Source of the DNA: Acidobacteriota bacterium
GTDB lineage: Bacteria > Acidobacteriota > Thermoanaerobaculia > UBA5066
Assembly: GCA_029781975.1 (NCBI GenBank)
Contig: JAKOVQ010000016.1
Location: forward strand, 1-64,000
Reading direction: 5' to 3'
DNA: 64,000 nt
The position numbers were made by a program, and so were the translations under genes. Each line of letters begins with the position of its first letter. The stretch's first letter is position 1. Shown one piece after another: positions 50,897 through 51,926 of this stretch. Under the pieces are notes generated by a model, which saw nothing but the letters and a program-made list of their open reading frames with translations, had not been told where the DNA came from and did no database searches.

Positions 50897-50924
50897 TTGC
50901 GCGCCGTTCCGGTTGCTCTACAAT
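50897..50924 (+). promoter_or_regulatory. Promoter of the Lys/Ala peptide gene
   Basis: TTGCGC (50897-50902) and TACAAT (50919-50924) are separated by 16 bp in an AT-richer patch. This is the best sigma-70-type promoter in the window and would start a leader of about 190 nt. Confidence 0.6.
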
Positions 50925-50943
50925 CTCGGCGGAAAGAAAAAAC

Positions 50944-50970
50944 GGCGGAACGACTCGAACTCGTTCCGCC
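50944..50970 (+). ncRNA. Structured 5' leader hairpin
   Basis: GGCGGAACGA (50944-50953) pairs perfectly with TCGTTCCGCC (50961-50970) around a CTCGAAC loop, near the predicted 5' end of the Lys/Ala peptide transcript. It may stabilise the RNA or be part of a regulatory leader. It is not a tRNA. Confidence 0.5.
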
Positions 50971-51120
50971 GCATCCGGGAGACCGGAGCTCCGAGGGAAC
51001 TAGCGACCAAGGGCAGTCGGCAGTTCGAAGGAAGCGGGCCCCCCGTCTCGAGGGACGGTCAAGGTAGCACGCAGCTTTCGGCACTGTCAATCGATCCTGC
51101 CAAGAGGAGGTGACAGAGCA

Positions 51121-51192
51121 ATGGCTACGAAGAAGGCTGCGAAGAAGGCTGCGAAGAAGCCCGCCAAGAAGGCTGCCAAGAAGGGCAAGTAA
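51121..51192 (+). CDS. 23-residue histone-H1-like Lys/Ala peptide
   Basis: A short gene encoding 23 residues beginning MATKKAAKKAAKK and ending AAKKGK: 11 Lys and 8 Ala with one Pro, a histone H1 C-terminal-type repeat expected to bind DNA or RNA. Support for expression is strong: AGGAGGTGA lies 9 nt before the ATG, a promoter lies about 200 bp upstream, and a textbook terminator follows 50 bp after the TAA. Codons (GCT, AAG) differ from the C-rich usage around it. It is shorter than most annotation cut-offs. It may compact the nucleoid or coat RNA; that is inference. Confidence 0.75.
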   Translation: MATKKAAKKAAKKPAKKAAKKGK

Positions 51193-51242
51193 GTCCCATA
51201 CCGGACTCATAAGTCCAATCCAATAAAGGTTTTCCGGGATAC

Positions 51243-51269
51243 GGGGGCGAAACGCCCCCTTATTTTTTT
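51243..51269 (+). terminator. Intrinsic terminator of the Lys/Ala peptide gene
   Basis: GGGGGCG (51243-51249), loop AAA, CGCCCCC (51253-51259), then TTATTTTTTT. This is the clearest Rho-independent terminator in the window. Confidence 0.92.
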
Positions 51270-51356
51270 GCCCACGCGCCGCCCGCGTCGGAAATGTTCG
51301 ATCTGCAAGGGTCGCCCGACGAATTCCACAGGCTGTCCACGCGGTTTTCCACCGAG

Positions 51357-51376
51357 GTATATAGAAACTTATATAC
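51357..51376. promoter_or_regulatory. AT-rich inverted repeat, likely PadR operator
   Basis: GTATATA (51357-51363), six bases, TATATAC (51370-51376) form a perfect inverted repeat ending 7 bp before the preferred PadR start. In such a GC-rich genome this is very unusual and probably combines a -10 region with an autoregulatory operator. Confidence 0.55.
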
Positions 51377-51383
51377 TTCGCTG

Positions 51384-51926
51384 GTGTCGCTTCCCCACGT
51401 CCTTCTCGGCCTCCTCTCGCGCGGCAGCGCGAGCGGATGGGACCTGAAGAACCGGATGACGCGCGACGGGGCGCTCGGCTGGGACGCGGAGCTCTCGCAG
51501 ATCTACCCCGCGCTGCGCCGGCTCCTGAAGGGCGGGTTCGTCGCGCTGAAGCGCCGCCGCTCGACGAAGGGGCCGCCGCGGCGCGAGTACCGCCTCACGC
51601 CCGCCGGACGGCGCGAGCTCCTCGAGTGGCTCGCCGAGCCGGTGGCTCTCCCGCGCCCGAAGGACGCGCCCCTCGCCCGGCTCGCCTTCCTCGAGAGGCT
51701 CGCGCCCGACGTCCGCGCCGCGCGCCTCCTCGAGCAGCGCCGCCTCGTCGCCGCCGCGCTCAAGCGCGCCGGCCCCCCCTCGAACGCCGCGCGGCGCCGG
51801 CGCCGCGCGCTCCTCGAGGCCGAGCTCGCCTGGCTCGACGCCGAGAGGGCCCTCCTCCTCGCGGACGCGCCCGCGCCCCCGGCCGCCGCGCCTCGCCGGC
51901 GGGGGGGCGGCGCTACGCCGGCGTGA
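51384..51926 (+). CDS. PadR-family transcriptional regulator
   Basis: A 180-residue PadR regulator. From the GTG at 51384 it reads SLPHVLLGLLSRGSASGWDLKNRM, the normal PadR N-terminus, followed by SQIYPALRRLLKGGFVALKR (recognition and wing) and REYRLTPAGRRELLEWL. A longer start at 51294 is possible but would place the AT-rich inverted repeat inside the gene and add an atypical 30-residue extension. The C-terminal part is the Vir_C-like helical dimerisation region and ends in an Ala/Arg tail. Its 3' end overlaps pcrA by 14 bp. Confidence 0.87.
   Translation: MSLPHVLLGLLSRGSASGWDLKNRMTRDGALGWDAELSQIYPALRRLLKGGFVALKRRRSTKGPPRREYRLTPAGRRELLEWLAEPVALPRPKDAPLARLAFLERLAPDVRAARLLEQRRLVAAALKRAGPPSNAARRRRRALLEAELAWLDAERALLLADAPAPPAAAPRRRGGGATPA

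Follow-up and report, generated by a model that had tools for sequence, protein, structure and literature searches.

H1-type tails bind DNA, and chlamydial Hc2 and lysine-tailed HU likewise carry Lys-rich, low-complexity DNA-binding tails, in HU on a folded domain. bTHX and eL41 are tiny ribosomal proteins, and some ribosomal-protein mRNAs begin with structured, autogenously regulated leaders near the Shine-Dalgarno sequence (SD). In Pseudomonas, AlgP organises polyphosphate (polyP) granules; it combines a helical domain of 124 aa with a 154-aa KPAA repeat (PMC9239181).

Here, we analysed 64,000 nt of an Acidobacteriota contig (this whole stretch is called the window), in which an open reading frame (ORF) on the plus strand encodes a 23-residue Lys/Ala-rich (K/A) peptide, MATKKAAKKAAKKPAKKAAKKGK. 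The locus comprises the following features:

50897–50924, plus strand: promoter-like TTGCGC (50897–50902) and TACAAT (50919–50924), 16 nt apart; region kept in relatives
50942–50972, plus strand: strong 5′ stem-loop, close to where the transcript presumably starts; arms vary by lineage, complementarity kept
51012–51101, plus strand: leader core with helices P1 (51012–51016/51097–51101), P2 (51019–51023/51084–51088) and P3, the P4 hairpin and the conserved loop CAANNTAGCA, from covariance model R1, folds and pair counts
51106–51113, plus strand: SD GGAGGTGA, 7 nt upstream of the ATG; motif common to the 16 leaders of the order
51121–51192, plus strand: K/A microprotein ORF, 23 aa; relatives carry counterparts
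51243–51269, plus strand: intrinsic terminator, 7 G-C pairs and U tract; terminator-like hairpin at the equivalent place in relatives
51384–51926, plus strand: padR-family regulator (PF03551); likely start GTG 51384, inferred from the family alignment

Like the H1-like C-terminal domains of AlgP and PhaF, the microprotein is Lys/Ala/Pro-rich, basic and of low complexity with a period of about 4 (for AlgP, PMC9239181). Unlike the AlgP/PhaF layout, in which the tail sits on a separate N-terminal domain, the whole protein measures 15–28 aa, is built on lysine doublets and has no attached domain. Chlamydial Hc2 and lysine-tailed HU share the Lys-rich, low-complexity character, but they greatly exceed the microprotein in length or join the tail to a folded domain. 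The H1-tail-like makeup is one of composition: among 20 members scanned, Pfam and NCBIfam returned 0 families. PDB sequences gave no match to the peptide, a query so short and simple that one may be missed, PHROGs yielded nothing significant for it, and a literature search of partial coverage turned up no description of an acidobacterial peptide of this kind. Gene-family libraries miss the gene because it is so short, and a recurrent gene of a widespread bacterial phylum has in this way escaped the family libraries searched.

The earlier note, made from this one sequence, had described a Lys/Ala-rich, histone-H1-like frame with an excellent SD, a good sigma-70-type promoter, a long leader and the strongest intrinsic terminator in the window. 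The observation of the small ORF is confirmed, and its description was right in substance with some details overstated. ORF, SD and H1-like composition stand as described. Promoter region, leader, ORF and terminator are kept together in relatives, in agreement with a transcription unit of its own, the long leader has a strong hairpin at 50942–50972, and the predicted transcript of 341 nt folds with z = -4.6 (0 of 100 shuffles equally good). The promoter TTGCGC-16-TACAAT is supported because its region is retained in relatives, but "good" was too generous: the -35 element matches 3 of 6 consensus positions, and a consensus sigma-70 scan found 0 sites. The terminator, a stem at 51243–51259 followed by TTATTTTTTT, ranks 4th of 7 by stem energy among the hairpin plus U-tract sites of a window scan and is not the strongest. 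The reported preference for GCT is real in the window (4 of 8 Ala codons vs 3 of 209 in truA, mqnD, padR and uvrD) but is not a conserved feature, since relatives use GCC, GCG or GCA at the same Ala places. What remains of the earlier interpretation is a real, conserved microprotein, with promoter and terminator overrated; the leader's own conserved fold and the recurrence across the phylum are beyond what a single sequence could show.

Two further elements were noticed around the unit. The strongest stem of the hairpin plus U-tract scan lies on the minus strand at 50941–50972, where the 5′ hairpin reads as a terminator-like hairpin with U tract upstream of mqnD. The longest padR ORF begins at 51294, and directly before the likely padR start there is a palindrome, GTATATAGAAACTTATATAC (51357–51376), which reads CTATAT...ATATAG in relatives of families f2 and f3; owing to this change it is probably a PadR operator.

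A DNA search of 60 relatives with 50900–51275 recovered the unit in 11 of the 14 genomes of the window's family. Promoter region, 5′ hairpin, leader, SD, ORF and terminator are all conserved in the alignment, and the peptide varies from 20 to 25 aa through in-frame changes. padR aligns downstream in 10 of these 11 loci; in the remaining one (L011) the stretch after the unit is unalignable, and a padR homologue is nevertheless present on the same contig. The covariance model of the order's leader (R1), run on 148 class genomes, matched 13 at E ≤ 0.001, of which two belong to another family; a laxer cut added three loci, each just upstream of padR. All five loci added by R1 encode a K/A peptide of 19–23 aa. 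Altogether, folded leader, ribosome site, K/A peptide of 19–25 aa and padR occur together in 16 of the 19 genomes of the order, which is the arrangement of short frame and leader upstream of padR that the earlier note had proposed to look for. The other three genomes (G003, G009 and G013; 96, 90 and 75% complete) gave no significant match to leader or padR, and G003, the most complete of them, is a member of the window's own family without the unit. Weak additional R1 matches in G003 and G011 were rejected, as no such peptide lies behind them, and a weak match in G000 (E 1.18) was left out on score. Across 396 genomes of the phylum, R1 returned 4 matches, all already-known members of the window's family, and a leader plus SD pattern searched in every genome of the collection matched 12 contigs, all acidobacterial (one Thermoanaerobaculia) and apparently those already found.

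Single-sequence folds, a five-row alignment of f2 and f3 and hand-set helices gave mostly one architecture for the leaders of f1, f2 and f3: P1, P2, P3 and the P4 hairpin, an AAUC bulge separating P1 from P2 on the 3′ side and a conserved loop CAANNUAGCA or a near variant. MAFFT alignments of the 16 leaders misplace the 3′ strand of P1, which is why RNAalifold shows little of this helix. In all 16 sequences the five P1 pairs are canonical, and both f2 genomes have U-A in place of one C-G pair; P2 is canonical apart from its last pair in these two genomes. P3 arms pair within their lineage at means of -14.8, -10.8 and -13.1 kcal/mol and across lineages at -5.0 to -10.9 kcal/mol; own-lineage partners are favoured on average, while the 5′ arms of f3 also pair well with the 3′ arms of f1 (-10.9). 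The leader of L005 folds no better than its shuffles (z -0.33), and that of L011 prefers a variant fold. An alternative pairing around the SD, CUGUCA/UGACAG, competes with P2; this stem, which encloses the SD, has little strength in f2, is interrupted by one mismatch in L011 and is in part dictated by the SD itself. In the window leader, the SD stretch has a mean unpaired probability of 0.13. Each genome holds one strong R1 match, and the leader therefore looks gene-specific.

Autogenous ribosomal-protein leaders resemble this arrangement in that a gene-specific, structured 5′ leader lies beside the SD of a small basic protein; unlike them, the order's leader had no relevant Rfam match, be it at gathering level on the window or at lax E-values at the locus and seven relatives. 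The only Rfam match of the window is a SAM riboswitch (RF00162, 11562–11686, plus strand, 84.2 bits), which is unrelated to the locus.

ORF-only matches led to a second family, f7, with K/A ORFs of 19–21 aa. Its leader, which carries GCGCGACCNNGAGGTCCCGTACGGCANGAAAGG before the SD, differs from that of the order, is equally conserved and had no relevant Rfam match; a DNA search found it in 13 genomes, with the peptide present in 13 of 13 loci. The f7 gene sits behind a glycosyltransferase gene and not before padR, and in three members (L103, L104, L106) Ser or Gly takes the place of most Ala with the Lys doublets retained. In f13, the K/A ORF follows the gene of a B12-dependent ribonucleotide reductase. 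Nine further families of the phylum also have the peptide, several other lineages show a TTGACA promoter, an own leader and a terminator, and two genomes of f66 have two copies each. In two f75 loci (L167, L168), the CCCCGG loop of a leader hairpin can, by eye, pair with CCGGGG before the SD, forming an H-type pseudoknot.

A strict pattern, M-A-[AT]-K-K...K-stop, occurred in 27 of 147 class genomes (24 K/A peptides after manual sorting, 3 set aside) and in 59 of 396 phylum genomes (15 set aside by eye, leaving 44 with K/A peptides in 14 families); a count of the reversed control pattern gave 14 occurrences. These numbers are lower bounds, since at least nine class members known through their leaders were missed. 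A peptide profile search matched 0 of 32 genomes and is uninformative, because two of the genomes searched (G055 and G046) carry the peptide. The proposed homology between distant lineages draws on composition and gene layout rather than on alignment scores, and Acidobacteriota, in which the gene was sought and found, are not a proven limit. Common to all lineages are only the peptide and its ribosome site; therefore, the peptide and not the RNA is the conserved product. Conservation of frame vs RNA had been set beforehand as the test on which the claim could fail, and the peptide turned out to be conserved far more widely than the RNA. Judged by these comparisons, the microprotein gene is real and recurs across the phylum.

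Substitutions point in the same direction. In the f1 and f7 groups, which were assembled by way of leader or DNA, 91.7 synonymous sites held 26 differences and 343.3 non-synonymous sites held 11 (three groups summed; same-length rows within a lineage, compared between neighbouring rows and not over all pairs). Only these groups are relied on, as the pooled ratio of 0.056 is biased by f24, f66 and f13, which came from the strict pattern with its six constrained codons. The 46 distinct peptides (15–28 aa) consist of 50% K, 29% A, 3% P and 0.2% R, contain no D, E, C or aromatic residue and have net charges of 8 to 15. Lys runs mostly comprise two or more residues, single K making up 8 of 213 runs (4%) vs 50% in shuffles, and 60% of run starts are spaced by 4 vs 19% in shuffles, in a set whose pattern-derived members favour K at fixed places. 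The rule looks like one of charge spacing rather than of sequence, and this composition rule is strict enough for searching and testing.

We consider it rather likely that the locus makes a translated microprotein, disordered and polycationic, that would act on a polyanion of the cell, with nucleic acid as the most likely target, and that in the window's order a gene-specific signal probably adjusts its translation. The microprotein is probably a free-standing positive tail: a free chain of lysine doublets spaced by small residues, with a net charge of about +11, which would act on nucleoid DNA or RNA much as a C-terminal tail of histone H1 or AlgP would if freed from its protein, and unlike a folded enzyme. 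Charge spacing would matter and the exact peptide sequence would not. Such a chain should lack a stable fold, which makes electrostatic binding its likely action. Composition alone cannot separate DNA from RNA or polyP as target; nucleic acid is the preferred candidate, since H1-type tails bind DNA and similar K tails are found in the same class on topoisomerase I (L016) and ribosomal protein S6 (L027). High expression and association with nucleoid or RNA, as suggested before, are plausible. The gene-specific leaders suggest dosage control, perhaps autogenous. In the order, the mRNA would carry the 5′ stem-loop and the gene-specific folded leader beside the ribosome site, and this leader may alternate between the P1–P4 fold, leaving the SD free, and a stem enclosing it; the simplest candidate for the signal would be the peptide binding its own leader. 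Much more tentatively, Acidobacteriota as a whole might use the 15–28 aa lysine-doublet peptide as a "polyamine" encoded by a gene: it would diffuse, serve nucleic acid or polyphosphate as a counter-ion and be dosed through its translation, and the structured leaders, which would have evolved separately in different lineages, might be read by the peptide.

A tiny protein associated with the ribosome, comparable to bTHX or eL41 and dosed through an autogenous leader as ribosomal proteins are, would also match the size, the charge and the gene-specific leader, and the KK tail on S6 in the class agrees with this. We regard such a role as unlikely: a core ribosomal part would not usually vary in length or be missing from some genomes, the loci read show no ribosomal gene next to the microprotein, and NCBIfam and PDB sequences gave no match, a weak argument for so short a query.

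A peptide organising polyP condensates, for which the AlgP granules offer a precedent (PMC9239181), is suggested by genome G256, where one copy stands in the order ppk1 - K/A microprotein - ppx (L181, 1433–5381), and by a ppx 1.6 kb downstream in G279. However, the G279 stretch has no ppk, and the neighbours in other lineages are unrelated; with the ppk-ppx flank found in one genome only, a polyP function is kept as a rival of rather low probability. The two genes flanking the G256 copy make and degrade polyphosphate, with a polycation gene between them.

That the RNA itself is the product, a structured sRNA or riboswitch with the ORF secondary, would accord with the deep conservation and common fold of the leader inside the order. 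Against this, in other lineages the peptide comes with a leader that is short or of another kind, or stands behind nrdJ, substitutions favour synonymous change, and Rfam holds no match; as the peptide is the only element common to all lineages, we judge this very improbable. Finally, a lysine-rich leader peptide for padR attenuation, as the many Lys codons ahead of a terminator and the padR next to it in 16 of 19 order genomes might suggest, was rejected as scarcely credible, because padR starts beyond the terminator, with a conserved palindrome there to itself, and is not the neighbour in other lineages, and an unsystematic look revealed no antiterminator pairing.

If the microprotein, as favoured here for nucleic acid, binds nucleic acid or polyP, the histone-H1-type tail would exist as a stand-alone protein, and work on acidobacterial chromatin or condensates would gain a direct target. 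The gene-specific leaders add further RNA elements absent from the Rfam library searched.

A separate, longer K/A-rich ORF of about 56–60 aa was found in the same genome on the same contig, outside the window (L030, 1393–3050), and also in relatives (L028, L029). These ORFs end in KKKDAGMI or KKKDVGLV/I, and in L030 and L028 an adjoining radical-SAM enzyme matches TIGR03975 (RiPP maturation C-methyltransferase); ORFs of this type are perhaps lysine-rich RiPP precursors.
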